In this document: piece by piece, positions 350 through 42,668 of the stretch
Numbering within the stretch: the first letter of the stretch is position 1
Layout: each line of letters begins with the position of its first letter
Origin: Serendipita indica DSM 11827
Lineage: Eukaryota > Basidiomycota > Agaricomycetes > Sebacinales > Serendipitaceae
Assembly (NCBI GenBank): GCA_910890315.1
Contig: CAJVGD010000005.1
Span: 1-64,000 of the forward strand
Direction: 5' to 3'
Length of the DNA: 64,000 nt
Position numbers and translations under genes: made by a program
The notes under the pieces: model-generated
The model's input: only the letters and a program-made list of their open reading frames with translations
What the model was told of the DNA's origin: nothing
The model's database searches: none

Positions 350-466
350 ATGGAATTTCTTCACCACTCTCAAATTTTTCGCGTTGACTGCCACCGAAGA
401 GCCAAAGGACCCTGAGGATGAGACGAGCCTGGTACGGGCTGGAATTATTATTGTGTCGTTGCATAA
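350..466 (+). pseudogene. Broken mating-pheromone precursor copy
   Basis: This relic belongs to the small lipopeptide pheromone-precursor family found at 10891, 12352, 14353, 18442, 39639 and 42668. The ATG at 350 and the final codons for CVVA plus TAA (452-466) are in the same frame over 117 nt, and the DNA between them aligns with the intact copies. The family block (MEFF, TTLKFF, ATEEPKDPEDE) lies in a shifted frame, however, and the ATG frame hits a stop after about 21 codons. Two compensating one-base shifts are needed, so it probably makes no pheromone. The TATA-like box at 239-247 sits at the normal distance. It is a host gene relic and not a mobile element. Confidence 0.7.
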
Positions 467-1149
467 GCAACACAAACGTGTGTGAATTTGAACATCGCTC
501 CTCAGTCACTGTTCTGACAAATATTGATTCGAAGTCTTACTCGGTAGAATAGAACGCGTCTCTATCCCTGAGTCACAAGGCATGGGATGACCTATTCGGC
601 CTACATCATTGAATATGCGCCATTGCATACAACTTTGGCTCCATACTTCATTCTCGCTATCTAGTCAAAGACCATTCGAAGTTGGCACTGTCTTTCGTCA
701 ATAAATCAATCTTTTCTCTGAAAGCATTTGATTGAACCTCACTGCGCAACGTCTTACTCTCATGTACCAAACATTACAATCATAGGATAGAAAGCCCTTT
801 ACGGAAATTGTCACCTATTGTAACGCGATCCCACCTTCATGTCACGAGCGAGCCAGTCTCTGAACGATGGGGTCGTTTTTAGTATTCTACACTTTAAAAA
901 GTGGTAAATAAATGCTCAGCGGCCTCTTTTTGTCATATCTTCCGCTTTCATGATTCACTTCATGCTTTCTGCATTTCTTCTCGCGCTCTCGCGCATAGAT
1001 AACGAGCACAACAATCGCTAATCGTGCACATAATGAGATTTATAGTCAATATCTACCGATTACGCGTTAGATCCTTCACTTCCTGCGGCCCTGTCGCTCG
1101 TCGGCCTTGTTCAGTCGCCTTGTTCGCCACTAGGATTCTTACTATGAAA
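467..1149. other. Intergenic; partly an old copy of the 6.6 kb region
   Basis: No coding gene is seen. At about 840-875 the words GTCTCTGAACGATG and their surroundings match the stretch at 6590-6620, just downstream of the intact bicupin gene. The ancient duplication described for 1150-2165 therefore probably begins near here. Confidence 0.4.
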
Positions 1150-1745
1150 GATTATGGACCCTCGAAGCAAAGCCATCAAAGGTCCGTATCAGACATACGA
1201 TCCTATCCGGCCGGTCCGCCACGCGACGACATCTCCAGCAAGTTGCGTCACCTCTGCCTCCTCTCCGTGGCCCCGCTATCTTGCCCTTACTGCCATGACG
1301 ACGACAAATTTAGTCCCGTTTAGAATGTGTGTGCGGAAGGCTGTCTGTTTTCGAAACGTGACGTAAAGTTTCATATAGGGCATGGGAGGTCGAATGGGCT
1401 TTACAGTCTTCTTGATGACTGCCCCGGAGCCAGACCAGGTCATAACTTCGTACGAGAATATGGTTGTTAGGCTTTCTGTTCAAGATGGATACTAATCGAG
1501 GTTGAGGATAGTTCTCTGAGGAGATCAACAGAAGTACGATATTTCCCTCATTCACATTCAAGCTATCACCTAGAAGCAATACCCTTCCTTTTTGCCCACT
1601 CGTGCGTATGACTGCTTGCCAACTTTCTCTCTGTTTGCCTTGACAAGTGCTTTGGCGTAACAACCTCGTTACTCCAAGTCGGTTACCCAGTTTCTTGGTG
1701 GGAAAATGGTGCGTATCGTCGTAGTCTTTGTCTGGTCGACGACCC
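1150..1745 (-). pseudogene. Bicupin pseudogene (decayed copy of 6673-7810)
   Basis: The minus strand carries recognisable but scrambled pieces of the intact bicupin gene. One frame reads GDSLNVNEGN and then NRKPNNHILVRSYDLVWL; the intact locus read in the matching frame gives NDSLNVNKGD and ARKPNNRVLVRSHDLVWL. Another piece (AHSTSHALYETL, 1320-1420) matches the coding DNA around the HAHSTEDELVI cupin motif. The N-terminal cupin half is largely lost and no continuous frame remains. It stands head to head with a CAF1 relic, as at the intact locus, so the two genes were duplicated together. The role in the parent is unknown beyond the cupin fold. Confidence 0.75.
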
Positions 1746-1812
1746 AAGGTGGCGAGGACCAACGACCGCGGGCAAACAAAGTCAACTTGTCTCCTCGACG
1801 ACATTGGCCATA

Positions 1813-2165
1813 ATGCCGGCCCTACCTGTTCTGTATAGGAAACTTGTGTGGAGTCTTGAGTAGAGACATAGAATATAGCAATGCTGGATCTACGCTGTCT
1901 CGTCAACGCGTGTAATCCTTTCGTGCCAATGTACTCAGCCCAATTCTAAACCAACGGAGTCGCCTTGACATATTTGTCGCGTTATGATACGAGTCTCTCG
2001 TTGAAATCACCCAGGGCTGTGAATTCCTAGCAGTCGTGTCGTGTCCAGGCGGCAGTTCGAGACTTTGACTGGCTATCACTTACCAGAGAAACTGCAGAAA
2101 CATAGAAATTATCAACTTTATTGCACTCGGCGTCACGTTGGTCAACACAAACGGACATTTGTTAT
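1813..2165 (+). pseudogene. CAF1 pseudogene (5' part only)
   Basis: From ATG 1813 the DNA follows exon 1 of the intact CAF1 gene at 7915 (ATGCCG start, then a stretch like GATGCAATGCGGGATC), then intron 1, then exon 2 (GAATTCC for the D-x-E-F-P region and CTCGGCGTCACGTTGGTCAA for LGITLV). Many substitutions and indels destroy the frame and the later exons are absent. With the bicupin relic this is a duplicate of the divergent pair at 6.67-9.64 kb, now lying on the other side of the NLR-like gene. Confidence 0.7.
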
Positions 2166-2331
2166 TCATGGTGTTATGGAGAAGGAAATGAGAAGAGGAA
2201 TAGAGTCTCGATAAGGAAAAGTACCAATTATCCATGTACTCCTGATGTTTATACAGTTGCCCCGATGAAGCGCCCACTCTCGCTACTAACCGAACTTTGA
2301 TCCCTTCCACAGAGACGCTCGCCGCTTAACA
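2166..2331. other. Upstream region of the NLR-like gene
   Basis: Short non-coding interval between the CAF1 relic and the ATG at 2332. No clear TATA box. The last 30 bases before the ATG are pyrimidine/purine mixed, as in a 5' leader. Confidence 0.3.
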
Positions 2332-5300
2332 ATGTCACAGTCCACGAACAACACAGAAGATGTACGCATCCTGAGTCTAGGTCAGTATCTTACTCTTCTG
2401 TGGACCCGCATCACTTACTCCCTGTCCTCAGATGGCGGAGATGGCCGCTGTATCTCACAGCTCTACATTTTACGAGAGTACATGCATCGTATTAGCCATG
2501 ATCTCAATCACGAAGTTTCTCCAAGCGATCATTTTCATCTCATTACAGCCGTTGGACCAGCTGGGTGCGAGGAGCGAATAGTGACTTTGGCGCCTTATCT
2601 TACCACCATCTAGTGTGATTGCAATACTTCTTGGAATTCTTAAGATGTCCGTCGACGATACTATCGCCACGTTTGCTCGTATCTGCCAGGAAGTGTACCC
2701 AGTCGAGGGCATGGACGCAGTCTCCCGGTCAGCAAAACTCCGCGGGGTACTGACTAGCATCCTCAAGGAGCATGACATCGACCCGAACGTCCTGTTGAGT
2801 CAGGTTGGAGGGACCAATATGTACGTGCTCTCTGGGCCGCAAACTCTGAACTGATTCGTCAAAGCTGTCTGGGCTATTCGTCTACCTCGAGCATGGCGAC
2901 TTGGAGGGCATTCCGCAACTATCCGAGCCGACAATACTCCTATGAACCCCCGCTCATCGATGCCATCTGCGCCTGTTGGGCTATCACGGGTCTCTTCCAA
3001 GCCATTGCAGTCGGAAGCGAGGTGGAAAAGGATGATGCAATCAGTGCGGAAGCCGCATATCCGAATCCTACGGTTCAAGCGGTCCAAGAGGCCAGTGAAA
3101 TCTATGGCGCGGACAAACATGTTGGGCTGCTTTTAAGCCTTGGGTCCGGGATGTCCTCTCGCATAGTCCCTGGAGGCGAATTCAAGCTCATTCAAACCGA
3201 GGTTACCTCTCGCGAGCTCGAACGCCGCTTCGGGACGACTGGCGTCTACTATCGTCTTAGCGTTGTGCCCAGTCTTGCCGCCGCAACCGAGATGACACAG
3301 GAGATCGTCGGTGTCATATCCGCTCACACCTCGGACTATTTACAAAATCCGGTGACGGATCGACTGCTCGATCAGGTGGCTAAAACGCGTTCTAGGGCCA
3401 GTCGCTTCACGCTAAGAAGCATGTGTAGGTCATTCTGAGGTAGTCTATCCTGGCTTCTGATTATGTTTCCAGCGGAAACGACGGCTCCACCAAAGGTTTC
3501 GATGGCCGGTCTCCCACCCCTCTCGCCTTACTTTGTCCAAAGAGAGGTGCCAATGAATCATATGGATGTGGCTCTTCTCTGTTCCGAGGAAAAAATGCGA
3601 CAACGGCTATCGATTATCACTGGAATGGGAGGCTCGGGTAAGACGCAACTCGTAGTGGCCTGGGCAAGGCTGCACGCCGAATGGTGAGAAGGCCTCAATA
3701 TCACGCGTACAAATTGAGATTACTCCGCAGTTTCCAACATATTTTATTTATCGATGCTTCGTCGGATAGGAGCATTGAGACGGATCTTGTTGCCCGGCTC
3801 AAAGCCATTGACCGCCCTTCGAAGGATCCGACCTGAGCAGTGCGCTCAAGGCTCTTTCTGAGCCAAATGAAATGATCACTACCAGATGGTGCCTCATCTT
3901 CGACAACGCGGACGACTCGGATCTGGATATAACTTCCTTCCTTCCGACATGCGACCACGGCGCTATCATTATTACAACTCGTAACGCCCAACTCGAATTT
4001 ATCTCGCCGGAGGGCCACATAGCCCTCGAAGTGATGAACAAAAGCGAGGCATGCGATGCACTTTTGGCCTCCGCACTTGGGCCGACCGAGAAGCATACTC
4101 CGCGCCAAAAAGAGCAAGCTATGGCAATTGTGAAGGAGTTCGAATACCTTCCAATCGCCGTTGTTCAAGCAGGATGTTACATTCGCAAGCACAAATGCTT
4201 GGAGACATACCTCAAGCGACTCGAGACGAGTCGTTCCGAGCTTTTGAAACAGACGACGGTTCAGCGGGACAAGCTGAGATACAAACACAGCGTCTACGCA
4301 GCATTTGACACTTCTCTGTCCTCGTTGTCCGAGCGTGCTCTTGGCCTCCTTTCGATCCTGTGCTTCTTTCATTATACCGGATTTCCTCGATCAATGATCG
4401 GCCTCGCGGCCTCGAAAAATTTTTCATATGAGGAGCACCAGCTCATGGATCGAGGCTCGGATTTCCAAGAGTCCGTCGATCTCCTTCGTCGGCTTATAGT
4501 CCCAACTGGGAGGTTTGAGGAGATTGAGCTGGACCAAATCATCGAAGAACTTCAACAGCTGTCATTAATCACACTTGTGTCACTCTACTCGGATATACGA
4601 CTGCGCTTTCACCCCCTCTTACATGCGTGGGCATATGATCGCCAAAGTGCGGAAGAGAACCGACGGAACAAGGCTGCGGCTCTACGACTGCTGACCTGTG
4701 TCGTGGATCAGAATGATGCCGTAGACATCGAGCCAGAGCTCTACCCACATGCGCGTCGTTTTGTTTCCGAGATCGACACACCCTGTGAATGACAGGGCAG
4801 CACTGGTTGAACTATCTGATCCATCTACGCTCTTAGAAGCTAAGCTCAGAACCTGGGAGCAAATTTATGAAATAGTACGCACTGCCCATGGGGATGAGGA
4901 TCTCCGAACCAGCGATGCACTTATTGGTTTTGCTTTGGGACTTGAGGCTATCCCCGATTACCCCAAGATGGAGCGGCTTCTACGTGGAGTCCTGGAATTG
5001 CGAAGATCGATTAGTGGGCCAAAGACTGCCCTCACCGCTGAGGCTATGTACTGGCTGGCAACTTGCCTTGGGAATACAAAGGACGGGCTCAAAGAATCAT
5101 TGGATTTATTGCGTGCGGCATATGATATTCAAGTTGAAGTTCTTGGGGTTGATCATATTCAAACCCAGTGGACCATGATATCCCTGACAGATGTTTTATT
5201 GAGTCGACAAGAAAACTACAGTGAAGCCCGCCCCATCTTGGAGGAGCTTCTGGACATACGGATCCGGTTGTATGGGTCTCTTCACTCACGGACCCTCGAC

Positions 5301-6512
5301 ACTGCCAAAGCTTTGGTCGAATGCTACGCTTTCATGGGGGTGAAAAAGGAAGGAAAACTCGACCATTTGCTTCAGATCTATTATGAAGGCAGCGATAAGG
5401 ACCGAAATTATGACGTTGCCGTTCTAGCTTTCCAAGGTCATATGCATGAACTACAAGGCAAATATCAGGAAGCTGAAGACGCTTATCGAGAATCGCTTGA
5501 GGCAAACAGTCGCCTCTACGGTCAGCTTTCAAGGCTCACTCTTTATGCCGTCTTGGATCTAGCCAATATTCTCTGGAAGCAAAATAGAAACACAGAGCTA
5601 GAAACACTACTCAGGCGGTATGCTAGGACTGATGAACTACAAGGAATAGGGCGACTTCCGCTCCTGAGGATACTGCAGATACTCGGCTCTTGCCTCAATT
5701 CTCAATCAAGATATGTTGAAGCACAGAAATTTCTCTCAGAGGCCCTTGACGGGATGGTTCAACTATATGGGGAAATGCACTTTGCTACGCATAGCATGCG
5801 TCGATCGCTTGCCAATTGCCACTTTAAGCAGAAGCACTATGACGAAGCAGAACTGCTCCATCGTAAGAACATGGAATGCATCAAAGAAGCACAAGGAGAG
5901 GAGCATACCAACTATATTCGTGCGCTTACATGGTTGGCACGATGTATTTATGAGCAGAAGAAGTTCGAGGAGTCGGAAAAACTCTGGAAGGACATCTACC
6001 TTCGTATGACCATACTCCTGGGGCCATACCACCCCGAGCCATGTACAGCTCTCTCCTGGCTGATCGAATGTCTACAAATGAGGGAGCTTTTCGACCAAGC
6101 GGCGTCTCATATTCCCGAAATGATGCGGGTTTACCGTATTTTGGATGGTGGAGAAAAGAGTCAGATCTTGCTCGCACATCTGAGAGTTGGGAAGGTACTG
6201 GAGAGACAAAGGATGTTCACCGAGGCAGAGGAAGTCTTTCGGGCCCATATAACGTGCGTCAAAAAGTTTCACGGAGATGCCGGGCCAGACTCCGCGCGAG
6301 CGTTGGATAACTTGGCCAGGGTGCTGTTCGACCAAGGCCGATATGACGAGTCAAAGACCATTCGCGAGGACCAAATGAGACGTTGGAGTGAGCTACAGGA
6401 CAAGAAGGAACAAGAATTTATCTCTGAAAAGCTGCAGCAGATCGAGGTGGCTTTCGTCCCCGCCCTCGGTCGATCCGTAGCTATCATCTGTGCCTTGTAC
6501 CAAAAACTATGA
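2332..6512 (+). pseudogene. NLR-like patatin/NB-ARC/TPR protein, two frame breaks
   Basis: Fungal STAND/NLR architecture, a class thought to act in non-self recognition and cell death. By-eye exons are 2332-2380, 2432-2564, 2614-2820, 2865-3424, 3473-3683, then 3731 onward. The patatin-like N-terminus begins RILSLDGGDGRC, but the usual nucleophile elbow GTSTGG reads AVGPAG, so the catalytic serine is missing. An NB-ARC follows with Walker A GMGGSGKT, kinase-2-like WCLIFDNADD and AIIITTRNA, then a winged-helix-like part and about 500 residues of TPR_10/12 repeats (LANCHFKQKHYDEAE, LARVLFDQGRYDE), ending at 6512. One-base frame breaks near 3815 and 4780 are not bridged by any GT-AG intron I can find. 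It is therefore either a recent pseudogene or carries base-call errors. It sits between the decayed and intact bicupin/CAF1 pairs. Confidence 0.8.
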
Positions 6513-6672
6513 CAATCATGTGTTTCTTATATCTGGCTACCTTTTACGGATGGTATTAGTGTAGTTGGATCTAGATCCCACCAAGTTCATATTACGAGAC
6601 CACCGCCTGTCTCTGAACGATGAGAATGTGATCGAGTTTGAGGACATTTAATTGTAGAACGATGTCATTGGG
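6513..6672. other. Convergent 3' region
   Basis: Short interval between the 3' end of the TPR-coding part on plus and the 3' end of the bicupin on minus. It contains the 6590-6620 stretch that is also found near 840. No further gene is seen. Confidence 0.4.
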
Positions 6673-7810
6673 TCATAATTCCATATCCTCGTCGCTCCGT
6701 ACATATTTCTTCCTAGCCTTTGTCTCCCAAGTCGGGTATTCCATGTCCTGTGTACGTGGATAATGGGGTGTATCCGACGCGCCTCCAATCGAATGCTGTG
6801 GCACGTCTTTCCACCACCAATGTTCGTGTCTGCGGTGTTTGAGTTTTGTCGGATAGAATAGCTTGTCCGTCTCTGGTTTGTTTTCGCCAATCGTCAAAAG
6901 AACGACATTCGACCCTGTAGAGAAATGACGGTCGGTGTTAGTGTAAAGTGAGAAGGCGTGAGGTCTAAACCGACCTATCGGCGGCTTACCTGAACCTCCT
7001 GGGCCATCGCCATCGTTGAGTATCGCATGGCACAGACCCGTCCCAGCCTTCCAAGCGACGACGTCTCCAGCGACCAGCGTCATCTCTGGCTCCTCACCGT
7101 CGCACCAGTATCTGGCCTTTCCCGCCAAGACGATGACGAGTTCGTCCTCGGTTGAGTGTGCGTGTGGGAAGGATGTTTGTGTTCCTGGTAAGAGGACTTC
7201 GAGCGTGGCGTTCCAGGGAAGAGGCGGTGGTGATTCTGGGTTTGGGGTGCGAGTAAAGTTTCGCAGAGGACGTGCGAGGTCGGATAGACCTGTGAGGGTA
7301 GCCTTTTTCTTCGTCTCTACACCAGAGCCAGACCAGGTCGTGACTTCGTACGAGGACACGATTGTTGGGCTTTCTGGCGGAGATGGATCCTAATCGAGAA
7401 TGGAAACGACTCTTTGAGGAAATGGAAAGACGTACGATATCTCCTTTGTTCACATTCAAGCTGTCGTTGAGGATCAATACGCCTCCTCCCTCCTTTCCGC
7501 CCACGAGAGTGTATGACCGCTCGCTATGTTTCTCTCCGTTTCCCTTGACAGGTGCATAGGCGAAACAATCCCACTGCTCCAAGTCCTTTCCTCCCGAGAG
7601 GTGGTAGATGGATCCGCTTCCATAGAGCATGAAGACGAAATGCCTGGCGAGTGGAGGGACAGTAATCTTGTACTCTTGCTTTGGTGGAAGAACGTGGAAT
7701 GTACAGTTTGCAAGATGGGTGGGCGTGTCGGAGTTGTTGAGAAAGAAATAGTCGGAGATGCTGACACTCTGGCGATTGTTGAGTGGTTTTGTAGCCTCGA
7801 AGAGATTCAT
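6673..7810 (-). CDS. Two-cupin-domain protein
   Basis: Complement of exons 7810-7436, 7389-6990 and 6914-6673 (375+400+242 nt, 338 aa). The 46-nt intron ending ATTAG and the 75-nt intron ending CTACAG keep one frame through both halves. The N-terminal half (CTFHVLPPKQEYKI, HFVFMLYGSGSIYHLSGG) is a degenerate cupin. The C-terminal half has a good cupin motif 1, FPHAHSTEDELVIVLAG (HxH then E), and motif 2, AGDVVAWKAGTGLCHAILND, so it probably binds a metal. No signal peptide. The substrate is unknown; similar bicupins occur as oxalate decarboxylase-like or uncharacterised enzymes. An in-frame ATG at 7843 would add 11 residues. It is divergent from CAF1 with about 100 bp shared promoter. The GTG that opens a shorter frame near 7359 is not needed. 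Confidence 0.8.
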
Positions 7811-7914
7811 TGTAAATGATTTTGGCGGTGGTCGTCGCATCATAATGGCAAAAGTGGCGAGGACCAACCAAGGGATGGACAAACAACTCTGACTTTGTCT
7901 CCTCCACCACGACA
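7811..7914. promoter_or_regulatory. Shared divergent promoter bicupin / CAF1
   Basis: Only 104 bp separate the two start codons (71 bp if the upstream bicupin ATG at 7843 is used). Both genes must share this interval. A related but decayed sequence precedes the CAF1 relic at about 1745-1812. No TATA box is obvious. Confidence 0.55.
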
Positions 7915-9636
7915 ATGCCGCCGCTGCCTGTGCGGGAAATCACCCGCGACGTATGGAGTAGCAATCTAGAAGATGCAATGCGGGATCTTCGCCGTCTCGT
8001 CGACGCGTATCCTTACATCGCCATTGTAAGCCGTCCAATTTCTCGCAGTTTTGGGATTCTCTAAGCGTGCTAACATTGCTACTGCTTTGAAATTGTGTAG
8101 GATTGCGAGTTTCCAGCCGTCGTGGCGCGTCCGATTGGCAAGTTCAAGACGTCGACAGACTATCATTACCAGACAATGCGCTGCAACGTGGAAATACTCA
8201 AGCTCATCCAACTCGGCATCACCCTCGTCAACGAAGACGGTCAAGTCGCCCAGGATTGTACATGGCAGTTCAACTTTTACTTTAACACCGAGTGAGCGCG
8301 GACAACCCCTTGTCCAGCCAGTCGCTCATCGTATACCGTATTCTCATCTAGTGAAGACACGTATGAACCAGCGAGTATCGACGCCCTCTCCAAAGCTGGT
8401 CTGGATTTCGCGCGACACCGCACAAATGGCATTCAGCCTGGCGACTTTGCTGAACTAATGATCACATCCGGTCTTGTCCTTTCAGACGAGACAATATGGA
8501 TATCTTATCACGGGTACGCGCTGCCCATTCGTCTTGACGCGCACTCATTCGGCACAGGGCCTACGACTTTGGATATCTACTAAGAATGCTTACCGGCGCT
8601 CCATTACCACTCACGGAAGAAGAGTTTTTCGACATTGTCAAGATTTGGTTCCCTCGCGTCTACGACATCAAGTATATGATGCGGCAGATAAAGCCTCAGC
8701 TCAAGGGCGGCCTGCTCGAAATCTCTCAAGATCTCGGTGTATCGACAGGAGTAAGTCTCCTCTTTCTTTTACATCACGGATCCTGATATTCGACAGGTGC
8801 TCGTTGGACCAAACTTTACATCCGGCTACGCCTCGTTCCTTGCCGCGACGACCTTTCATCACATTCTCAACCAATATATCGCCCCCTCTTCTAGTCGGTG
8901 GGATCTCTCCGCCTTTTTGGGCGCACTCTACGGTCTGGGGAGCACTTATGTCTCTGGTGTGCTCGACAATTCCAAGTCGACACTCACGTCTGCAGAGCGT
9001 GAACGACCCGGAACTGTTAGTCACGGTATGGGCTCTGGAGCAGCTGGACTGCACTCGTCGGCACTCGCATCACTCGCGGGCGCCGGGCTGGGTGGCGTGT
9101 TGAGCGGCGGGCAAAGTGTCATGGGCCACCAAAGTGGACAACAAGCGCAGCATCTCGGTGTGGGTGTCGGTGCACTTGGGTCGACATCTGCCCAGCATTA
9201 TCTGAACCAGGTTGCCGCTGCTGCCGCTGCGGGTGGGGGACATGGCGTTGGAGTAGGTGGGATGGGTGTGATGCCGTTACACCACCAACATGCGCTGCAT
9301 GGGCATCATCACCAGTCGCATCATCATCATCCACATGGGAGCTCGAGTTTACCTGGCCTGGGGCTCGGCTCGGCGGGCGCGCTAGGTGGGCTTGGTGTGG
9401 GACATTTGTTGAGCGGACAGCATCATCAGACTCAGCAAGGGTCTGGCTCTGGGAGTAGCCAGGGTCAGCAAGGGTCTGGTGGACAGCAAGGTCAACAAGG
9501 TCAGCAACAGGTCTATGGGATGGTACCCGGAGTCAACTCGTACGTGCCCGGGTATGGATTGGGTGGGATGGGTGTAGGATTGCCTGGGTATGGTGGTGTT
9601 CATAACATGAGCCACTTTTACACCCGCGATCGCTAG
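7915..9636 (+). CDS. CAF1: CAF1/POP2-family CCR4-NOT subunit, active site altered
   Basis: Exons 7915-8025, 8101-8291, 8352-8513, 8558-8750 and 8797-9636 (1497 nt, 498 aa). Residues 1-270 align with CAF1/CNOT7: N-terminal VWSSNLEDAMRDLR, DCEFPAVVARPIG, TWQFNF, AYDFGYLLRMLTG, FPRVYDIKYMM, LKGGLLEISQDLGV, GALYGLGSTY. CAF1 is a DEDD-type 3' exonuclease that shortens poly(A) tails. The first three acidic residues are present (D38, E40, D158). The fourth motif, GPQHQAGSD in human CNOT7, reads GPNFTSGYA, so the catalytic His becomes F226 and the last Asp A231. Nuclease activity is doubtful; yeast Pop2 is a known precedent for a diverged site. A tail of about 225 residues is rich in Gly, His and Gln, with His runs. 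Intron 1 has a CTAAC branch site. Confidence 0.88.
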
Positions 9637-10890: not shown

Positions 10891-11007
10891 ATGGAATTCT
10901 TTACCACCTTTGTTCATTTTGCTGTGCCCCGCACCGAAAAACCGAAAGACATCCAAGATAATGACGGAGGCAGTACTGGAGGCTCCAGTAGCTGTGTCGT
11001 TGCATGA
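10891..11007 (+). CDS. Mating pheromone precursor (CVVA)
   Basis: Open frame of 38 codons plus TGA. It begins MEFFTTFVHFAVP, has a charged middle (RTEKPKDIQDND), a Gly/Ser-rich end (GGSTGGSSS) and finishes with the CaaX box CVVA at the stop. Basidiomycete lipopeptide pheromone precursors have this layout: they are cut internally at a charged pair, farnesylated and carboxymethylated on the Cys, exported by an ATP-driven exporter, and sensed by STE3-type receptors. The mature peptide is probably the last 9-11 residues before the modified Cys, cut after ND (inference). The start is fixed by alignment to the sibling genes. A likely 3' UTR intron runs from GTGAGT at 11050 to CTTCAG at 11104. It is too short for routine gene callers. 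Confidence 0.82.
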   Translation: MEFFTTFVHFAVPRTEKPKDIQDNDGGSTGGSSSCVVA

Positions 11008-11049: not shown

Positions 11050-11104
11050 GTGAGTCCTTATGGCGGCATGCTCCATCAATCAACTGATGAGTATTTTGCT
11101 TCAG
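11050..11104 (+). other. Candidate 3' UTR intron of pheromone gene
   Basis: GTGAGT donor 43 nt after the stop, ACTGATGAG branch-like sequence and TTGCTTCAG acceptor. A GGTGAGT donor at about 33-43 nt after the stop also occurs at the pheromone genes at 18442, 39639 and 42668. Confidence 0.45.
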
Positions 11105-12351: not shown

Positions 12352-12492
12352 ATGGAACTGTTTGCCACCCTTGGACCGCGCACTGAAGAACCAAAAGTCC
12401 CTGAGTATGCTGGAGACGGTGGCAGCGATGGGCCCTGTGTTGTTCGTGAACCATATGTGCATATTTCCGCCGTCAATAGATTTCCGTGTTAG
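12352..12492 (+). pseudogene. Pheromone-precursor copy with lost CaaX box
   Basis: It reads MELFATLGPRTEEPKVPEY, AGDGGSDGP and then CVVR, where the siblings have CVVA and a stop. The frame runs 14 codons further to TAG at 12490-12492. It is also shorter by several residues in the N-terminal block. Without a terminal CaaX, prenylation and export as a pheromone are unlikely. Upstream, TCTTTGCAATC just before the ATG matches the leaders of the sibling genes. It is either a decayed gene or one recruited to make a non-prenylated peptide; decay is more likely. Confidence 0.68.
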
Positions 12493-15534: not shown

Positions 15535-15666
15535 CGCTGTGGCGGAGCCTTACGTTTGGCTTGCCACCTGCTCTTTTCTCGTCTCCTGTACGTAGACTCG
15601 TTGGCACAATAAACATTTCTATTGTCTATCGTGCGTAACGCTATCTGTCCTCCGCCTGCCTCTTGC
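15535..15666 (+). repeat. Dispersed repeat, copy 2
   Basis: Second copy of the repeat at 12789-12920, same strand, with substitutions and small indels spread evenly. The flanks do not match beyond this length. Confidence 0.6.
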
Positions 15667-31109: not shown

Positions 31110-33092
31110 CTAATATTCGGTGTATTTTGTCAAGCTAAACAATTCCTCTACGTCGACGACTCCATGCCTCGTATTACAAACTCCGGGAGAGAGCCAGCCG
31201 GCGAGGGTGCATTGCTCGCAGGGAAGAACAATTTGGGGCCCCTCGAGGTGATTTAGTGATGCTTCGAGCTCGTCTCCGTTGAGAAGTCGCACCAGCGACC
31301 CGACTAGCCTTCTTGCGGGCCGCTTCGGGAGGCGTAGAGTCAGGACAATGGAGCTATCATTTACTTGGACCCATTCCTTGAGTATACGTTCGACTATGTT
31401 CCACACTGGAAACCAGCCGAGACCTATTGTGCGGAGTTGTGGCAAGCTGTGAAGACGAGAGTGGAGTAACTCGAGCACCATGCCGCCACTCTCTGGAGTC
31501 TGGGGGGTTGAAGTTATAAGTATGACCTCTCTCAAGGCAGGGAATGTGTAAACTGAACCCAGGAAACCCATGGCTGATTTCAATTTGCAATGGAGGCGGA
31601 ATAAAGATCCAAATATGAGGTCCTGTGAGCCTATGGCGTGTGAATTTGTCACGTTTGATTCTTCTGAGCTCATATCATCGGGCGAGGTAGGAAATGGAAG
31701 CACGATCGTCGGCTCCTTTGTGGCATGGTCTTCAATTTCCTCGAGACTGGACACCCATCCGGTAGGAATATAGAGTGATCCAAACACAGACTTGCCGATG
31801 TAAAGTCTCCGAATACATGGAAGCGTTGCTAATGGATAGTCGACCTTTCCTACCAAGGATAAGGTATCACAAGCGAACAAAGCGGACCTAACCACTGTTT
31901 GCTGCCATGATGGCTTTATAGTCTCCAAAATATCCCAAGAGGTTGGCTCGAGCTTGGTAATAGGTCTCTTCAAAACATCGAGTTCAGATAATGTGTACCA
32001 AGATAACGAGCGGAAGTATATATGGATGTACTGAACTGTCGCGACTGACAATAGTGTTTGTAACGGAGCGCAAAGAGTTTGGAGGGTTCGCCCTTGGCTC
32101 GTACTGGGAGGCATATGAACCACCACGAGTTTTCGTATAGAGTGTTCGTGACTGTGTTGCAGTCCCGGTAGGATATCCTTGTAATTGAGACGCTGTGTAG
32201 GTCTAGTGACTATTCGCGCTTCATCTAGACAAAGTCGCACAGGAAAGTTTTGAATAATGTCGCACATTGACTTACACTCCCCCTTGAGGATAAGATAGCG
32301 AAGATTGGGAGCAGTCAGGCAGCATAGAAAGTAAGTGCCGACGGTGAATGGCACTACCTCAAGATATAGTCCTCTTAGATGTGGTAAGAGGAATGGTGGC
32401 TCCTCTTGAGTCACGTAAGGTGTACCTTCGAGACTCAAGGTTTGAAGATGGCTGTTGTGAAATAGTTGCATTTGGGCCGTGTAAAGACTCGAACCTGAGA
32501 AACCTGTCACAAGGTCCGTTTGGTATATATCAGCGGTTGTGTATAGGACCGATCCAAGACGCCGTTCGTCCTGATGACTATGGAAATACGATATATCTGC
32601 ATGTCTAAGCTTTGTTGTCATATAGGGTTCATAGCGATCAATCTGCCATGAATGCTGCACAACAGATGTCATAATCGGATCAACGTCGAGCCAAAGTATC
32701 CGTTGTATTTGGTTCTCGTCACGCAGTGTCAACTCCAGGTCTTGGAATGCATAGAGAAGGGAGAAATAGGTATTATTCTTCGCGAGTACTATGATCGCTT
32801 CGACGTCATATCCGAGAAGGCGCCTTAGAGTTACCATTGCCCAATGCGAACAACCGAGCCGGATGATGAGCGATTGTCCCCGAGCCATTGAGAGGGAAAT
32901 TGCCAGTCTTGCCTCAAAATCCCCAATTTCATCCGATATCGTAATATACCTCCATAGGTTCGCCATACTGCCATGCAAAGCCAATCTTTGCCATGCGGTG
33001 CACACCGTCAGAAGTATAAATGGGCCGTCTGGGTTATATTGTGCCACAGCATGGAATATATCACGTAGTACATCCTCGTTGAGGCGATCCAT
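31110..33092 (-). CDS. F-box-like protein with C-terminal CxxC-C-H motif (A)
   Basis: Single exon, 660 aa. It begins MDRLNEDVLRDIFHAVAQ, ILLTVCTAWQRLALHGSMAN and LWRYITISDEIGDFEARLAI, an F-box-like domain followed by a region with leucine-rich stretches. Near the end come GLGWFPVWNIVERILKEWV, LTLRLPKRPARRLVGSLVRL and then C-EQ-C-TLAGWLSPGV-C-NTR-H-G and a conserved VxVEELFSLTKYTEY tail. The C-x2-C-x10-C-x3-H spacing is shared by three other family members here. It probably acts as an SCF adaptor (family inference); the ligand is unknown. It lies tandem with paralogue B upstream. Confidence 0.8.
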   Translation of the reverse strand: MDRLNEDVLRDIFHAVAQYNPDGPFILLTVCTAWQRLALHGSMANLWRYITISDEIGDFEARLAISLSMARGQSLIIRLGCSHWAMVTLRRLLGYDVEAIIVLAKNNTYFSLLYAFQDLELTLRDENQIQRILWLDVDPIMTSVVQHSWQIDRYEPYMTTKLRHADISYFHSHQDERRLGSVLYTTADIYQTDLVTGFSGSSLYTAQMQLFHNSHLQTLSLEGTPYVTQEEPPFLLPHLRGLYLEVVPFTVGTYFLCCLTAPNLRYLILKGECKSMCDIIQNFPVRLCLDEARIVTRPTQRLNYKDILPGLQHSHEHSIRKLVVVHMPPSTSQGRTLQTLCAPLQTLLSVATVQYIHIYFRSLSWYTLSELDVLKRPITKLEPTSWDILETIKPSWQQTVVRSALFACDTLSLVGKVDYPLATLPCIRRLYIGKSVFGSLYIPTGWVSSLEEIEDHATKEPTIVLPFPTSPDDMSSEESNVTNSHAIGSQDLIFGSLFRLHCKLKSAMGFLGSVYTFPALREVILITSTPQTPESGGMVLELLHSRLHSLPQLRTIGLGWFPVWNIVERILKEWVQVNDSSIVLTLRLPKRPARRLVGSLVRLLNGDELEASLNHLEGPQIVLPCEQCTLAGWLSPGVCNTRHGVVDVEELFSLTKYTEY

Positions 33093-33192
33093 TTGTTCTC
33101 GGAGTGATGGCGGAAGTCAAAATGAGGCTGAGTTGGGTTCGTAACCACCGTTTTCACTAAATATCATCTAAAAAAAAACCTCTTTCTATTCG

Positions 33193-35211
33193 CTAATACT
33201 CTGTATTCCTCGTTATATTCCACATATCGTCTACCTCGACACGCCCATGCCTAGTCTCGCAATCTCCTGGGAAGCGCCATCCAGCAAAAAAGCATTGATC
33301 GCAAATAAAGTACATATCGGAGCCAATATCATAAGGAAATGCCTCCTTTGGCTCCTTTCCATTGAACAACTGTACGAGACAGGCGACCACTCTTCTCGCT
33401 GGCCGGCTAGGAAGGCGTAAGGTTAGAATAGTCGCGTGTTCGTGTATATTCACCCATTTCAGAATAAGGGGTCCTACCGGATACCACTCTGGGAACCAGT
33501 TAATGCCAATAGTACGGAGCAGAGGCATGTCTCCCAAGCGAGCGGCGAGTAGTCGAATAACGCCGTCACTTGAACGCGCAAACTTCCCAGTTGCGTGCCA
33601 TAGTATGATTTCGCTTAAAGCGGGGAATATGCAGTACAATGGTGAAGGTCGTTTAGATGGAGACGCGCAGAGTGGGGAGAGAAGCGATTCAGCGAGCTGT
33701 GAGAAGCATACAAGCCTGGATAGTGATGTGAACGTATAAAATTCGGTCACCAACGTTCCATCCGCTTGCCGTGTATGCGACTTGTCACCTTGCGACTGCG
33801 AGCCGAAGAGAATAACGGCGGCGGGTATCATAGTGTGAATTTCGAACTCCTGTATGACGGATAACCACTCGTATGGGATAAGTAGCGGATCGAAGAATGA
33901 TTTTACGACGATCTTTCGCGCCGAGGGAACCCATTCAATTGGTCCGACTGACTCTCTGTCCAGAATGAACGTGTCGCATAAAACGCTAGCACGTGAGCCT
34001 ACGTGGGTAGACGGCGATGCCTGGCCGTCTGTAGCGGCACCGACGTCTTTGAGTAATTTGATGGTGTGTATCGGTTCCTGGAGCTCCTTAAGATGGTATA
34101 AGTAGCCATAATAGCATGAAGGCAAGCTAATATGGAGTCTATTAGCTTTAGTACTTTGTAAAAGGTGTCTAAGCGGTAGGAGGAGTCGCTGCAGCTGCAG
34201 ATTTGGGCTTTCCTTGACCGAGACCTTTGCGACTATTGTGAGTTTATCCACTGAATGGGGGATCCTCGTAGGCTTGATGGCCAGGGTATTTGAGATACCG
34301 TCGAGCCTGGACTGCTCCAATAGTAACTCGTCAAGCACAAGGCCATCGGACATGGTGCGAACAATATCGCATGTTGACTTAAATCTCCCCCTAAGCCAAA
34401 AGCGACGAAGTTTTGGAACCCGTAGCTTTGAGGTAAAGGTATGATCGGACCAACTTGTTTCAACTTCTAAGTGCAAGATTTCGAGGCCGGGTAGGTACAG
34501 CGTTGGTGCGTCTTGAGCCATGGGTGGCGAGTAGTCAAGACTGAGAGCGTAAAGATGCGTCATCGTTCCGAGGTAGGGCAAATTTTTGTAAAGATTATCC
34601 GCAGAATTTGACGAAATGCGATCAGTATCTCTCAGTTGGACGAGTGTTATCAAGTTGGTTGGTACCCTTTCAACTGTTGGAAACGGGCGCCCACAAAGGT
34701 CGTTTTGAACCAATGGTGGCAAGAATGGGAAATACCTATCAACGTCACACCATCCAAGAGCTAGACGCTGGAAGCGTACATAAAGGCGTTCATCAATGTC
34801 GGTCCATAGAATCTGTGGGACAAATCTCTCTCTAGTTGTCCTGAGCGCACCTTTGAGCAAGTCAAACGTCTCTTGTAGTGAGTCCCAGGACTGCCGATGT
34901 GCCAAAACCGTTAGACTTGCTATGTCGTAAGCTAATACTCGAAATAATGCCGGAATAATTCGAGGAGAGTAACGAAACCTGACGGCAAGTGGGCGGCCAC
35001 GGGCGAACGCGAGCGAAATTTGCAGCCTTGCGTCGAGATCTTCGGTTTGATCTGATATTGTAATGTATATCCACAAGTCTGCCATACTGACTTGGAGAGC
35101 CAATGCCTGCCACGAAGTAGACACCGTGAGCAGGATAAACGCGCCATCAGCGTGAGTTTTGGCAACGGAGCGAAATATCTCGCGTAATACATCTTCGTTG
35201 AGACGATCCAT
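33193..35211 (-). CDS. F-box-like protein with C-terminal CxxC-C-H motif (B)
   Basis: Single exon, 672 aa. A paralogue of the gene just downstream, about 100 bp away and on the same strand. It begins MDRLNEDVLREIFRSVAK, ILLTVSTSWQALALQVSMAD and LWIYITISDQTEDLDARLQI. It ends GINWFPEWYPVGPLILKWV, LTLRLPSRPARRVVACLVQL, C-DQ-C-FFAGWRFPGD-C-ETR-H-G and NITRNTEY. The middle diverges strongly between A and B, while the two ends are conserved. That is the pattern expected of adaptors with a fixed partner and a variable target (inference). Confidence 0.8.
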   Translation of the reverse strand: MDRLNEDVLREIFRSVAKTHADGAFILLTVSTSWQALALQVSMADLWIYITISDQTEDLDARLQISLAFARGRPLAVRFRYSPRIIPALFRVLAYDIASLTVLAHRQSWDSLQETFDLLKGALRTTRERFVPQILWTDIDERLYVRFQRLALGWCDVDRYFPFLPPLVQNDLCGRPFPTVERVPTNLITLVQLRDTDRISSNSADNLYKNLPYLGTMTHLYALSLDYSPPMAQDAPTLYLPGLEILHLEVETSWSDHTFTSKLRVPKLRRFWLRGRFKSTCDIVRTMSDGLVLDELLLEQSRLDGISNTLAIKPTRIPHSVDKLTIVAKVSVKESPNLQLQRLLLPLRHLLQSTKANRLHISLPSCYYGYLYHLKELQEPIHTIKLLKDVGAATDGQASPSTHVGSRASVLCDTFILDRESVGPIEWVPSARKIVVKSFFDPLLIPYEWLSVIQEFEIHTMIPAAVILFGSQSQGDKSHTRQADGTLVTEFYTFTSLSRLVCFSQLAESLLSPLCASPSKRPSPLYCIFPALSEIILWHATGKFARSSDGVIRLLAARLGDMPLLRTIGINWFPEWYPVGPLILKWVNIHEHATILTLRLPSRPARRVVACLVQLFNGKEPKEAFPYDIGSDMYFICDQCFFAGWRFPGDCETRHGRVEVDDMWNITRNTEY

Positions 35212-35654
35212 GGCTGTGGAACTCTGTCGTCAAAGTCAAAGTGTGGGTCACTCGATCTTGACTCCGACCACAATGAGCTATCGACATCAATAGCTGCAGT
35301 GAATATTGGATAGAACAACTTTTTTATTACGATTATGTGACGATATCAGGGTTATAATTCCGTGAGCCCCCATTCATCCTCGACCCGAAGATCACGCCCT
35401 CTGACTTCCGCGATATTCAGCAGCAGTGCTTAATTCTACATTCCGCCTGAAACTAGTTCCAAAGAAGCCGGCTGGTCGAAGTAATATCGCCTATGACGAT
35501 TAATCTTGCATCACTCGCCTAGGCGGTCTCGTCATGTCTCTTCTCATCGCACGCGCGGTGAACAGGCCTCTATTCTCTCTTTCCCCAGGGGCAACTCTCT
35601 GAGCGAGCATAAAATGGCCAACACGCGTTCAAGCACGCCCAATCGACACCCATC
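35212..35654. promoter_or_regulatory. Divergent promoter F-box B / Rds1-like
   Basis: About 440 bp. AGCATAAAATGGCC (TATA-like) lies near 35608-35621, about 40 bp before the secreted-protein ATG. Nothing else is recognised. Confidence 0.4.
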
Positions 35655-37207: not shown

Positions 37208-39102
37208 CTAAAGGGCTAATGAGGGCTCGTACCAATCAGCTTGCCCGTGCGTAAGATGACAGTCAGCCCTAGCCTGCCATCCGACACGAGCACAATACTG
37301 GCACCCTACGGTAGCAGCACCTTCCGGTTCTCTCGGAAGTGGTATATCTGGTGTCGCGCCGTTAAGAAGCTGGACGATTGCGCCTAGAACTGGTCTTCCT
37401 GGTCGTTTCGGTAGCCTGAGCGTGATATTCGAGGCACTTCCATGCGTCTCGATGGAACGCTCAATGAACTCCTGAATGTATGTCCATTCAGGGAACCAAT
37501 CAAATCCGAGAATACGTAGGTGTGGTAACTTCCCCCTAGAAAGCTTGCTGTTAGATGCGCATACAGTTGAAGGAAGGAGAGAGAGCAACTCTTTCACTCA
37601 TTTTTTACTATGATTGGAGTACCATTTTACGTGCAATTCTTCCAGCACCGGAAATTGATAACCCGAGGGCAGGATATCCACAAGAAGGCGAAGGGGACAA
37701 TTGAGGCGTAGAAGGGATTTAAACACACCTTCCTTGCCTGCGGGAAGTTCTGACCAGGTTTGAGTGCGCTGAAAGAACGCGAGTGTGCTGACATTTCCGA
37801 ATGTAAGGTCGATGAGCGAGGAGTACCAGGAGTCAGGAAAGCTGTATAGAGGGTGTGGGAATCCTAGAATAATCAAGTTTCTCACATGATAAACGTCGGA
37901 AATTGACTGTGCTTCGGTGGCTAGAGTCATGACATTGCAAGAAATCTTGTCTCCAGTAGGCTCGATATGAGAAGGCCACAAATACCCACTAGAGCTCCGG
38001 TAAGGGTTCAACCGCGATACATAAGTTATTTCCAACTTTATAGCACCGAGGGATGTAACCAATGCTTGGGCGAATGAGGCAAATGAGCGTGAGGCCAAGT
38101 CCTCGCGTGTTTGTGCGATGTCTACCTCGATTTTCAGATGGTGAGTGGAGTGGCGGTACAAGGATAAATCGTATGGATGCCGATCTTCACCAATCTCAAC
38201 GGCTGGACGGGTCCACCCAGACCTTAGAGTTAGCATTGTGAGCTCGAATGAGTATTCCGAATTCGTAAAGTACTCATATAGGTCGCTCCACGGCCCTCGG
38301 AGAGCTAGCTGGCGGATATTAGGAGTCACTAGAATAGGAATCGCCGAGGTCGAGTATAGGTATGAGTGAAGGCCGTCAATATCCAAGTGCTGGAGTGATG
38401 GAAAGAATACGCGCTGGCGTACTTCGTTAGCCGTCTGGATAAAGGAATCGGGGTTGAATATCAATGACGTGAAATGAGTGAGTCTCGAGACACAAAATCG
38501 AAACGCCCCAGCTGATAGTCTAGGCGTTGAACCATGGACCAGTCTGCTCCTGGCAGACATACGTGCGTCAAACAACGACAGTAGGCAGGCAGGGTACGCT
38601 CGTAAATCGCGCTCGAACTGCTCCCTATCTCCGAGGTGTTCATGATCAAAGATCCCATTCCGAAATTCTCTTGGAACGTATGGGTGATCCCCCTTCGAAT
38701 CACGCCAGAGAACCTGGTCGATCAGGTGCGGAGGGTATTGCAGGAGTCTTGTTTGGAGAATGTCAAATTTATCGTCTTTATGCCGATTCATGCCATCGTT
38801 GATAACGATCAAGCATTTAATATGCCTCTTTATAACCTCGCGCAAAATATCAGGAGCGGAAATCGCTAGATAGGCTCTGACGACAAGCGGCATCCCTTGA
38901 GACAGACCGATTGTGTATGAACTTTTGCATTTAAATCATCCTCCTCGTCAGAAATCCGAATATATCGCCACAGACGAGGCGAACGAATCACTTGCGCTTG
39001 CCAGTTTGTGCAAACCGCGGTTAGGATGAACATACCGTCATCGAGCAGTTCGGCGATGGCGTTAAACACTTCTTAGCGGACATCTTCGTTTAGTCGGTTC
39101 AT
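37208..39102 (-). pseudogene. F-box family pseudogene, unit 1
   Basis: Same family as the genes at 31.1, 33.2 and 60.4 kb. It begins at 39102 with MNRLNEDVR and then a stop codon, followed by EVFNAIAELLDDGMFILTAV and WRYIRISDEEDDLNAKVHTQ. After a frame change the long middle part (from 38893) reads MPLVVRAYLAISAPDILREV and onward. After another near 37600 the C-terminus has FDWFPEWTYIQEFIERSIE, RLPKRPGRPVLGAIVQLLNG and C-QY-C-ARVGWQARAD-C-HLT-H-G. One nonsense codon and two frame changes make a functional product unlikely. It is the best-preserved F-box relic of a three-unit tandem array that also carries pheromone genes. Confidence 0.75.
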
Positions 39103-39519
39103 GGTTATGAAACCAGATACCATCGGGTGAGTCTGGCTTCCCCTCCAGCCTCACTACTGTTTCAATGCACTATATACAAGCGAAATATCTGCAGGACTGA
39201 CTGATAAGTCGCAGTACTATCCATGGTAAGAATGAAAGCAATAACTCAATCCAAGGAGATAGGCCAGTTTTGAGAATAGTTTATATAGAGAGCACGAATA
39301 ACTGAGACACATATAACTTACATATCCTGGTGTAATACTGATCGCAAGCCTTATAGCTAACCAACGAAGTGAACCAATTCCCGGATTATCGGCGAGAGTC
39401 TGGAAGACAAGAGGTTCTTCGCATTGAATGATGCTGAACAGAGATTCTTGTTAGGACATTCGCTGAAGGTTTTGCCCTAAGACTCACCTCCTTACAAGCT
39501 AGGTAGCGATAAACCTCGC

Positions 39520-39639
39520 CTATGCGACAATACAAAAACCCCCGCCAGCACCTTTGGTGGATGTGTCGGAATCCTCGGGACCTTGTTGCTCCTCAGTGGT
39601 CTTCGAAGCGAAGAAATCAAAAGTAGTGAAGAGTTCCAT
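39520..39639 (-). CDS. Mating pheromone precursor (CIVA), unit 1
   Basis: Frame of 39 codons plus TAG on minus: MELFTTFDFFASKTTEE, QQGPEDSDTSTKG, AGGGF, then CIVA at the stop. The layout is the same as at the plus-strand genes, but the CaaX is CIVA. Cleavage after TK would release a short Gly-rich peptide ending in farnesylated Cys (inference). A GGAGGTGAGT donor 33 nt after the stop suggests a 3' UTR intron, as at the sibling genes. It is nearly collinear with the copy at 42668, so both arose by tandem duplication together with the F-box relic. Confidence 0.82.
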   Translation of the reverse strand: MELFTTFDFFASKTTEEQQGPEDSDTSTKGAGGGFCIVA

Positions 39640-40990
39640 GGCTTTAGGTAAAAATATAGCTTTTGATAGAGCTGAGAGCTGTGAAACGGCAAACAAATGG
39701 GGGATGAGTTGATGGATGGTAAGGGCAAAAGTTGGGTGGGGTTTTACACTGAGCGACTAGCACATTTCCATCCAAATGTATCCGTGTGATACGCTTGAAA
39801 CGGAATGTGAGAAATACGCGATACGATGCATTGGCCAAGACCTGCCTACCTTGCTTAGCCGCCTTCTTTATCGCTGATGCAATTAAATCTTTAACATTTT
39901 CAAATATTTTCCAGATCTCTCACACTCGGTTGGACCAGGGTTATTGCAAGTTGGGCCTTCAGCGCCACATTGCTAGGCGAGGCATGAATTCAAAGAGATG
40001 AAGACGTTCTCTCACGGTTAGTTGGACAAGTTTCACCTTCCACTTTCGGTATTGCAACGGTCTAAGGCTGTCTCTTGGTGCCATTCCCTCCCACGATCTA
40101 CACGCACATCTATGACTTAGGTGTTCTCTTTCTCACTATATCCCATTTAAATGGAATTGAGGGATGTATTCGAAGCTCTGCCCTGCTCCACGATGCCAGT
40201 TGTCATGGCCAAAGCTTCGGAATCGGGGTGGGACAGGCAAGAAGAAGAAGGTGCGACTCCGATTGTGTCGCGCGTACATATCCACCGAACCAAGAGATAG
40301 AAAGAAACCTCATGCATCCAGGGGATCCTCTACCTCCGTACGTGACACTGGCTTGAAGCCCCGCTTGTCGCGGATTTCTTAAATAGGGCCGACCCTATGA
40401 GGGATAAATCTACGGTACATATCGTTCCTGCCAATTTGTTCCTCCATAAGCACAGCGTCGCAATCTATGTTTCCGCTGTCTTCGATGGCTCCGTCCAAAG
40501 TGGATCAATCCGGGATGTATTCTCGGCTCCGCTCACAGCGGCCTTGGCCGGGGCTATACATATAAATCTGACGCCCTATTTATTAGACAGCGGCAGGCAC
40601 GGAAATTCTCGTGTCACGTGCACCAGAGCGGAGAAAGGCGACCGAAGGAAGGTTGTCGGGTCTTGCCTGACACTCCCGCACACTTTGTGTCGCACCTCGG
40701 CCCATCAGTACAGTCAGAATACTTCCTCTTTCCACCATGTACTATGATGCGCTCGCAGAAAACAGCCAACTAGTCTCCTATCCGTACCCTCCCCAAGAGC
40801 GCAGGTGACCACTTCGTATTTTCACGTCCCGTTTATCGACTTTGTTGTGTCTAGTTCGCCCGTTACGTTTAATTTGTCCTGCGAATGAGCCGCTTTCTGC
40901 CTCTGCTGCTCGCTAATATGCGTCTGGCTAATCCCTCAGCGTAGACAAGAAGCAAAGAGAGACAAATGGTAAAATCTTTTCTATTGGATT
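39640..40990. other. Spacer of unit 1 with pheromone promoter
   Basis: No gene is supported. A TATA-like GTGTAAAAC on minus near 39741-39750 lies about 105 bp upstream of the pheromone ATG. Most of the spacer aligns with 42669-44030 (for example the CCCACGAT, GCACATCTAT and ACCAGTTGT words near 40.1 and 43.1 kb). A part near 40560-40680 also resembles 17740-17860. Confidence 0.55.
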
Positions 40991-40997
40991 GACTGTC

Positions 40998-42085
40998 TTT
41001 TGTGATACTAAGGGGCTCAACTACTGGTGAGTACCAACAAGCCTGTCCATGCCTGCTACAACAGTCGGCTCCAGCCCGCCATCCGGCGCGAGCACACCCA
41101 TGGTGTGTGCGACGTCTACTTCGATTTTCAGATGGTGAGTGGAGTGGCTGTGCGAGGATAAATTGTATGGATGCCGATCTTCACCAATCTGAAGAGCTGG
41201 ACGGGTCCAACCAGAACTTAGAGTTAGCATTTTGATCTCGAGTGGATATTCTTAGTTCGTGAAATACTCGTTTACGTTGCTCCGGGGCCTTAAGACGGCT
41301 AGCTGGCGGATATTAGGAGTTGTCAGAATCGGAATCGCCGAGGTCAAGTATACGTATGAGTGACGGAGGGTTCAGTATCCAAGGGCTGGATCAATGGCAA
41401 GAGTATACGCTGGCGTACTTCGTTTACCCCCGGATAAAGGGATCAGGGCTGGGTATCAATGACGTGAGATGGATGAGTCTCGAGACACATATGGAGCTCC
41501 TGGGCCGATAGCATGGGGGTTTGTCCGTGAAAAGGCTGCTCCTAGTGGACCTACGTGCTTCAAACAATGAAAATAGGCAGGCAGGATACCCTTGCAGCTA
41601 GCACTCGAACCGCGCCGTATCTCCGAGGTTTCCGTAGTCGAAGATTGCACTCTGGAGTGCATTAGGAACGTATGGGTGGTGCCTCGTCAAGTCATGCCAG
41701 AGAACCTGGTCGATCCGGTGCGGAAGGTATTGCAGGAGTCTTGTTCGGAGAATGTCAAACCTATCGTGATTAATACCGTCATTGACGACGATCAAGCATT
41801 CAGCATGCTTCTTTATAGCCTCGTCGTGAATCTGAGATGCGGACGTTGCCAGATGGGCCCTGATAATGAACGGCATCCCTTGAGACAAGACCAGTTGTGT
41901 TTTCAAATTACATTCAAATTATCCGAGTCGTCAGAGATTCGAATATATCGCCACAGACGAGGCTAACGAATCACTTGCGCTTGCCAATCTGTGCAAACCG
42001 CGATGAGGGTGAAGACGCTGTCCTCAAGCAGATCGGCAGTAGCGCAGAACACATAGCAACTTGCATCCTGGTTTAGTAGGTTCAT
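40998..42085 (-). pseudogene. F-box family pseudogene, unit 2 (deleted middle)
   Basis: This relic matches the unit 1 pseudogene in order. Its start region near 42085 reads MNLLNQDA and its middle MKTQLVLSQGMPFIIRAHLA and LRTRLLQYLPHRIDQVLWHD. Its 3' end at 41.0-41.1 kb matches 37.2-37.3 kb, but about 0.8 kb of the C-terminal part is missing between them. Frames are scattered. No protein is expected. Confidence 0.72.
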
Positions 42086-42548
42086 GACTGGATGAGTCTG
42101 GATTCCCCTCCAGCCTCACTGCCAATTCAATGAAGGGTTTCCGAGACCAAGAATGAATATATATACCTAGAGATATACGGAAAATTATTGTTGTATATAG
42201 CAGAATGTACAAGCGACCTCTACAGGACTGACTGGTAAGGCGCGTGGTGTCCATCGCAAGACTGTAAAATCTCAATCTGAGGAGATGCGGCCAGTTTTGA
42301 GAATAGTTTATATAGAGAGAACGAATCAAACTGTGACACACGTAGCCTGCATATACTGGTGTAATACTGATCGCAGGCCATATAGCTAGCCAACGGAGTG
42401 AACCGATTTCTGGATTATCAGCGAGACTCTGGAAGACAAGAGGTTCTTTGCATTGAATGATGCTGAACGGAGATTCTTGTTAGCCCATTCGCTGAAGGCT
42501 TTGCCATAGGACTCACCTCCTTACAAGCTAGGTAGCGATAAACCTCGT

Positions 42549-42668
42549 CTATGCGACAATGCAAAAGCTCGCACCACCACTCTTGGTGGATGTTTCGGAA
42601 TCCTCGGGACCTTGTTTCTCCTCAGTGATCTGAGAGGCGAAGAGCTCGAGGGTGAAGAAGTATTCCAT
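42549..42668 (-). CDS. Mating pheromone precursor (CIVA), unit 2
   Basis: Frame of 39 codons plus TAG on minus: MEYFFTLELFASQITEE, KQGPEDSETSTKS, GGASF, then CIVA at the stop. It is the tandem sibling of the gene at 39639, with the same length. The acidic middle (QGPEDS, TSTK) is conserved, whereas the N-terminal block and the residues next to the Cys (GAGGGF against SGGASF) differ, so the mature peptides would differ. A TATAAA box lies 125 bp upstream and a GGAGGTGAGT donor about 33 nt after the stop. Confidence 0.82.
   Translation of the reverse strand: MEYFFTLELFASQITEEKQGPEDSETSTKSGGASFCIVA

Follow-up and report, generated by a model that had tools for sequence, protein, structure and literature searches.

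Do the short open reading frames (ORFs) ending in CaaX boxes that cluster near the start of contig CAJVGD010000005.1 of Serendipita indica DSM 11827 form the pheromone part of a mating locus, or do they belong among the pheromone-type genes that lie outside it? We analysed positions 1 to 64,000 of this contig on the forward strand (assembly GCA_910890315.1), a 64-kb stretch referred to here as the window. An initial annotation of the sequence had proposed a family of seven mating-pheromone precursor loci, five of them intact, and had placed them at the P/R (B) mating locus. Our analysis upholds the family and argues against the location. With a probability of roughly 70%, the five intact genes encode pheromone-type precursors of the non-mating kind, likened to those of Agaricus bisporus, Coprinopsis and Laccaria, and lie outside the mating locus. 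This reading draws on a DNA profile that finds seven loci, nine invariant residues, a TATA-type box, an intron motif and the ratio of nonsynonymous to synonymous divergence (dN/dS) in a tandem pair, together with the lack of a receptor or recognisable flanking gene in the window, Gly-rich ends and a match to the published description of A. bisporus.

The five intact frames are named here by the position of their start codon. Three lie on the plus strand and end in CVVA: 10891 (10891–11007; 38 aa), 14353 (14353–14466; 37 aa, nested in a longer 90-aa ORF with a start at 14194) and 18442 (18442–18567; 41 aa). The other two, 39639 (39520–39639) and 42668 (42549–42668), are on the minus strand, encode 39 aa each and end in CIVA. 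On rechecking of coordinates and ends, all five were found where the initial annotation had put them, and in 5/5 the CaaX box is the exact C-terminus (lengths 37–41 aa). Four begin with ME-x-F and one with MN-x-F, and nine positions are invariant across the set, including F4, T15, E16, C35, V37 and A38 in the numbering of the first member. Every frame has, 10–13 residues before the Cys, a dipeptide made up of acidic, amide or basic residues: ED at 11 residues in 14353 and at 13 residues in both 39639 and 42668, DN/ND at 10–11 residues in 10891, and DK at 11 residues in 18442. The predicted mature ends all differ, in agreement with the earlier expectation of five different mature peptides. That these ends are Gly-rich, as was also proposed, holds for four frames, with Gly at 4 of the 10 positions preceding the Cys, and fails for 42668, with 2 of 10.

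CaaX-ended ORFs do occur randomly, and the array might be a collection of such accidents. Under a strict count, which required a CaaX end and a Met 30–60 codons upstream, the window contains five such ORFs, all five of which also bear the N-terminal pattern; 200 dinucleotide shuffles gave a mean of 1.5 (maximum 6), with the N-terminal pattern as well in 0/200. This pattern, the TATA-type box and the intron motif were all defined post hoc from the loci, but the leave-one-out profiles were not. A DNA profile (nhmmer) built from the five intact loci with 140 nt on either side, and excluding the decayed loci, matched exactly seven loci in the 64 kb at an expect value (E) ≤0.1, both decayed loci among them. 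When each locus was omitted in turn, with the tandem pair (39639 and 42668) omitted as a whole, 5/5 intact loci were recovered at E ≤1.5e-18, and every run also found the two decayed loci. Individual values were 3.6e-25 for 10891, 7.1e-28 for 14353 and 1.1e-23 for 18442; a model built from the three plus-strand loci only gave 1.5e-18 for 39639 and 1.7e-23 for 42668. The sole additional match in these whole-locus runs had an E of 0.71, and the reversed-window control produced one match, at 0.19. With the upstream 140 nt alone, 3/5 omitted loci were recovered (14353 just, at E 0.038; 10891 and 39639 were missed), along with one unrelated match at E 0.75. The 140 nt on the downstream side, used by themselves, likewise recovered 3/5 (14353 and 18442 were missed). 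Homology spans about 400 nt per locus and extends outside the coding part. The seven loci are therefore a gene family of whole-gene paralogues, more than a shared motif, and the count of five intact and two decayed members is confirmed. Given the shuffles, the length of the homology and the two kinds of profile search, an origin of these frames by chance is scarcely credible. A pattern scan of a viral contig set returned 141 matches and no relative.

The two decayed members, both outside the profile model, lie on the plus strand at 216–491 (locus 350; E 2e-20) and 12213–12593 (locus 12352; E 4e-21). At the first, an ATG at 350 is in frame with a CVVA-stop at 452–466, with two in-frame stops between them, and a TATA-type box is found at 242. 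At the second, the frame (ORF 12352–12492) overruns the CaaX position, and part of the N-terminal half is absent by eye. Decay at either locus may reflect sequencing error.

A TATA-type box is located 107–130 nt upstream of the ATG in 6/7 loci, comprising the five intact ones and 350, with no match at locus 12352 and one further match in the window. Past the stop codon, a strict fungal-type intron motif (53–55 nt in length, beginning 32 or 42 nt past the stop) is present in 4/5 intact loci, a count that includes both tandem-pair members, and in 0/2 decayed loci; at random positions its frequency is 0.7% of 20,000. These splice motifs predict introns in the 3′ untranslated region (UTR) of 10891 (11050–11104, plus strand, 55 nt) and 14353 (14509–14561, plus strand, 53 nt, GC-AG type), each with a donor 42 nt past the stop, and of 39639 (39434–39487) and 42668 (42463–42516), both on the minus strand, 54 nt long and with a donor 32 nt past the stop. 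For 18442, a possible 3′ UTR intron of 56 nt (18607–18662, plus strand) was aligned by position; it has the donor GTGAGT and the acceptor TAG and fails the strict motif, its branch motif being off consensus.

The minus-strand precursors are carried by a duplicated unit. Copy 1 (38109–40207, minus strand) contains 39639 and a fragment of a neighbouring repeat-family gene, and copy 2 (41103–43200, minus strand) contains 42668 and the same neighbouring sequence; the two are 67–85% identical by piece (blastn, overlapping pieces). The duplicated unit and the two decayed copies together are evidence of birth-and-death turnover. Could the whole array be a relic, made of former pheromone genes that were spread by duplication and are now out of use? 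Two of seven copies are decayed, and the coding parts of the tandem pair (93/117 identical) differ more than the 130 nt that follow them, which hold the 3′ UTR and intron (120/130 identical). Yet all five frames are intact through the CaaX box, the coding sequences of this closest pair align ungapped with a dN/dS of 0.39 by NG86 (0.185/0.477), 0.36 by LWL85 and 0.50 by YN00, and non-coding sequence is shared as well; we judge disuse of the array to be very improbable. For the more distant pairs the ratio is uninformative because of divergence at silent sites, with no computable dS in 6/10 pairs and a dS of 1.6–2.0 in 3/10.

When the duplication units were compared in 60-column blocks, identity peaked in the roughly 180 bases that immediately follow the coding part, and a second high stretch was found at the far end of the unit. 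The segments 39331–39510 and 42360–42539, which cover the 3′ UTR and intron of the tandem pair, are more alike than the coding sequence, and this higher identity may reflect either a constrained 3′ UTR or gene conversion acting locally. Other repeats also occur among the precursor loci. The inverted repeat pair 15967–16318 / 43287–43583 (73% identical over 139 bp and 89% over 65 bp) is placed upstream of 18442 on the plus strand and of 42668 on the minus strand; the two sub-clusters may thus be linked by inverted duplication, or both may carry the same mobile-element remnant. A direct repeat, 12788–12917 / 15534–15663 (86% over 130 bp), lies among the plus-strand loci.

The match to basidiomycete lipopeptide pheromones claimed at the outset stands as regards the type of family, given the CaaX ends, the five distinct mature ends and the family profile, and is weak in Pfam. 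Precursor 10891 matches the Ustilago family Mfa1 (PF17445) at E=0.01 and 39639 matches Pheromone (PF08015) at E=6.8; both are local matches below the cut-offs, and Pfam matched neither family in the remaining three intact frames or in the decayed frame at 12352. As the initial annotation pointed out, Mfa1 of smuts likewise has the end CVVA. The same end is found in a Schizophyllum precursor (PMC4136793). For the receptor-adjacent precursors of Flammulina, the authors obtained Pfam values of 0.0013, 0.45 and 0.035 (PMC3140503). Pheromone precursors are often missed by gene callers (PMC5473757).

The proposal that these genes lie at the P/R (B) mating locus found no support in a search for the rest of such a locus: within the limits of the window, neither a STE3 receptor nor a Trichaptum B-locus flanking gene could be recognised. 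Six-frame Pfam scans of the window, run in 8-kb chunks such that a match spanning a chunk edge would be cut, gave no STE3 match (PF02076) at E ≤0.01. In three stretches where membrane segments are predicted, the plus-strand frames gave none at E ≤10 either. Only weak COX7a and Med26 matches were returned by Pfam for 54224–54943 (the densest hydrophobic group, with five plus-strand segments in differing frames), 12.4–13.7 kb and 22.7–23.6 kb. The genes flanking Trichaptum MATB are PAK, RSM19, DML1, RIC1 and SNF2 (PMC8970355). The 64-kb scans, which listed 7, 9 and 19 Pfam families, showed none that could be recognised as one of them, an absence that weighs little because flanking genes vary between orders (PMC5473757). 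Families that were found include CAF1, amidohydrolase, HMG box, CCCH zinc finger, F-box, copia retrotransposon domains, thioredoxin, ferritin-like, AA9, CBM1, glyoxal oxidase, cupin, NB-ARC and TPR.

The main alternative is that the array forms the pheromone part of the P/R (B) locus, with receptors sitting just beyond the window, perhaps left of position 1. Several different precursors per region are typical of B loci, the family extends to the left edge of the window, PR subloci can be 170–177 kb apart (PMC5100862, PMC3140503), and in Grifola distances of 10.8 and 12.5 kb separate the outer precursors from the receptor sublocus (PMC10607315). Against this stand the lack of STE3 in 64 kb and the Gly-rich ends and mutual similarity of the precursors, which recall the non-mating group. 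In the excerpts on Flammulina, Grifola and Trichaptum, B-locus precursors are near or among receptors (PMC3140503, PMC10607315, PMC8970355), at distances of 320 bp, 427 bp and 2.1 kb in Flammulina (PMC3140503) and with 6 receptors intermingled with 5 precursors over 47.8 kb in Grifola (PMC10607315). We therefore consider a mating-locus placement unlikely. The Flammulina authors expect extra precursors away from receptors, unlikely to act in mating type (PMC3140503), and two pheromone-like peptides of Pleurotus tuoliensis map away from the matB scaffold (PMC5755439). The array is a caution against taking clustered CaaX precursors, by themselves, as the mark of a mating locus.

A non-mating assignment is favoured by comparison with A. 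bisporus, in which four Gly-rich precursors are encoded on chromosomes 1 and 2 and four receptors on chromosomes 5, 12 and 13 (PMC8305134). Expression is reported for at least three of these precursor genes, each of which has an intron in its 3′ UTR; the authors' conclusion is that none of the four serves in mating type, and three of the predicted mature peptides resemble those of the non-mating type in Coprinopsis cinerea and Laccaria bicolor (PMC8305134). The S. indica genes share with them the CaaX end, a short precursor, a Gly-rich end, several paralogues per genome, a 3′ UTR intron that is predicted in the case of S. indica and the lack of a receptor gene adjoining the precursors, here within the 64-kb window. 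The A. bisporus consensus GGGSGN(G/N)AYC is matched loosely, by eye, and most closely by the end of 18442 (PMC8305134). Differences include the start, ME/MN-x-F here and the published motif MDS/AF there (PMC8305134), and the packing here of two decayed copies and five distinct predicted mature ends into about 42 kb. Pycnoporus cinnabarinus has seven potential precursors of 39–65 aa, four of which are more alike and resemble presumed non-mating-type peptides; its precursors start with MDA/DF, and a genomic array like the one here is not reported in the excerpt (PMC4101180). The B-locus precursors of Rhizopogon, Flammulina, Pleurotus and Schizophyllum resemble those of S. indica in the CaaX box, a charged pair before the mature end and overall layout, but are near STE3 receptors; those of Rhizopogon are 48–60 aa long, compared with 37–41 aa. 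Gly residues per 10 number 4, 4, 4, 4 and 2 in the window, compared with 1–2 in the 7 distinct ends among 13 Rhizopogon B-locus rows, and aromatic, aliphatic or charged residues number 1–2 per 10 here, compared with 4–6 in 6/7 Rhizopogon ends.

Several points weigh against this assignment. The seventh Rhizopogon end, with 2 such residues of 10, is as plain as the window ends, and two Flammulina mature peptides have 2 Gly of 10 and 3 of 12, so Gly content draws no sharp line between the classes, in a comparison set that is itself small. The likeness to A. bisporus was drawn from description and a short consensus, and precursors there are 44–54 aa long (PMC8305134), compared with 37–41 aa here. 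In A. bisporus, a bipolar species, the PR locus no longer acts in mating (PMC8305134), so the 3′ UTR intron there may not be peculiar to non-mating genes. The literature names charged pairs such as ER, ED and EH, about 10–15 residues from the C-terminus; of these, ED occurs in only 3/5 frames, DN/ND and DK not being among the named pairs. B loci too carry several precursors, and a receptor may sit just beyond the window, at whose left edge one family member lies.

For non-mating pheromone-type precursors, which we still favour, a pathway can be outlined whose steps, from splicing, processing and secretion to the receptor and the non-mating role, are predicted. A short transcript would start from the TATA-type promoter and lose a small intron in its 3′ UTR. 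In the 37–41 aa precursor, the Cys of CVVA/CIVA would be farnesylated, the last three residues removed and the Cys methylated, and cleavage near the charged pair 10–13 residues upstream would free a small, mostly Gly-rich lipopeptide. STE3-type receptors with genes elsewhere would sense this peptide, which probably would not determine mating specificity. Several mushrooms have pheromone-like genes away from the mating locus, and such peptides may or may not meet non-mating receptors (PMC8305134); a compact family in which intact copies stand beside decayed ones, with common upstream sequence and an intron predicted in the 3′ UTR, provides a clean set in which to test expression, processing and receptor. 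A bolder proposal, which we regard as quite improbable, is that a receptor-free array amplified by duplication and yielding at least five distinct farnesylated peptides per haploid genome constitutes a non-mating signalling code, for example in hyphal growth or self-recognition, with a shared promoter of its own and a conserved, spliced 3′ UTR that controls dosage. If so, the peptides would be the missing half to self-recognition by non-mating receptors, a role suggested for those of Schizophyllum (cited in PMC8305134).

Beyond the precursor genes, the window contains a copia-type retrotransposon at 45115–50034, which was probably inserted recently because its terminal repeats (45115–45329 / 49820–50034) are 99.5% identical over 215 bp. 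An extra repeat copy is found at 50070–50273 (92.6%) and an inverted fragment near 63443–63595. Related large genes and their fragments are repeated at 31113–35229, 37211–45127, 50274–51065 and 60277–62325, and one fragment of this family sits in the duplicated unit with 39639 and 42668. An F-box identity for the neighbours at 31–45 kb and 60 kb was rejected, as the three tested, 37601–38935, 60277–62325 and 31113–33116, have no Pfam match; at 25662–27035 an F-box match falls below the cut-off. In some basidiomycetes, pheromone genes are controlled by HMG-box proteins. An HMG-box match (E 1e-11) comes from somewhere in 8001–32000, and the ORF 30459–30899 was discarded as its source, having no Pfam match. 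Strong TPR matches were found within the combined scan of 1–8000 and 56001–64000. An NB-ARC match below the Pfam cut-off at 3812–4789 possibly marks an NLR-like gene, and diverged copies of one stretch, about 65–76% identical in pieces, flank this region at 1219–2157 and 7051–8243.

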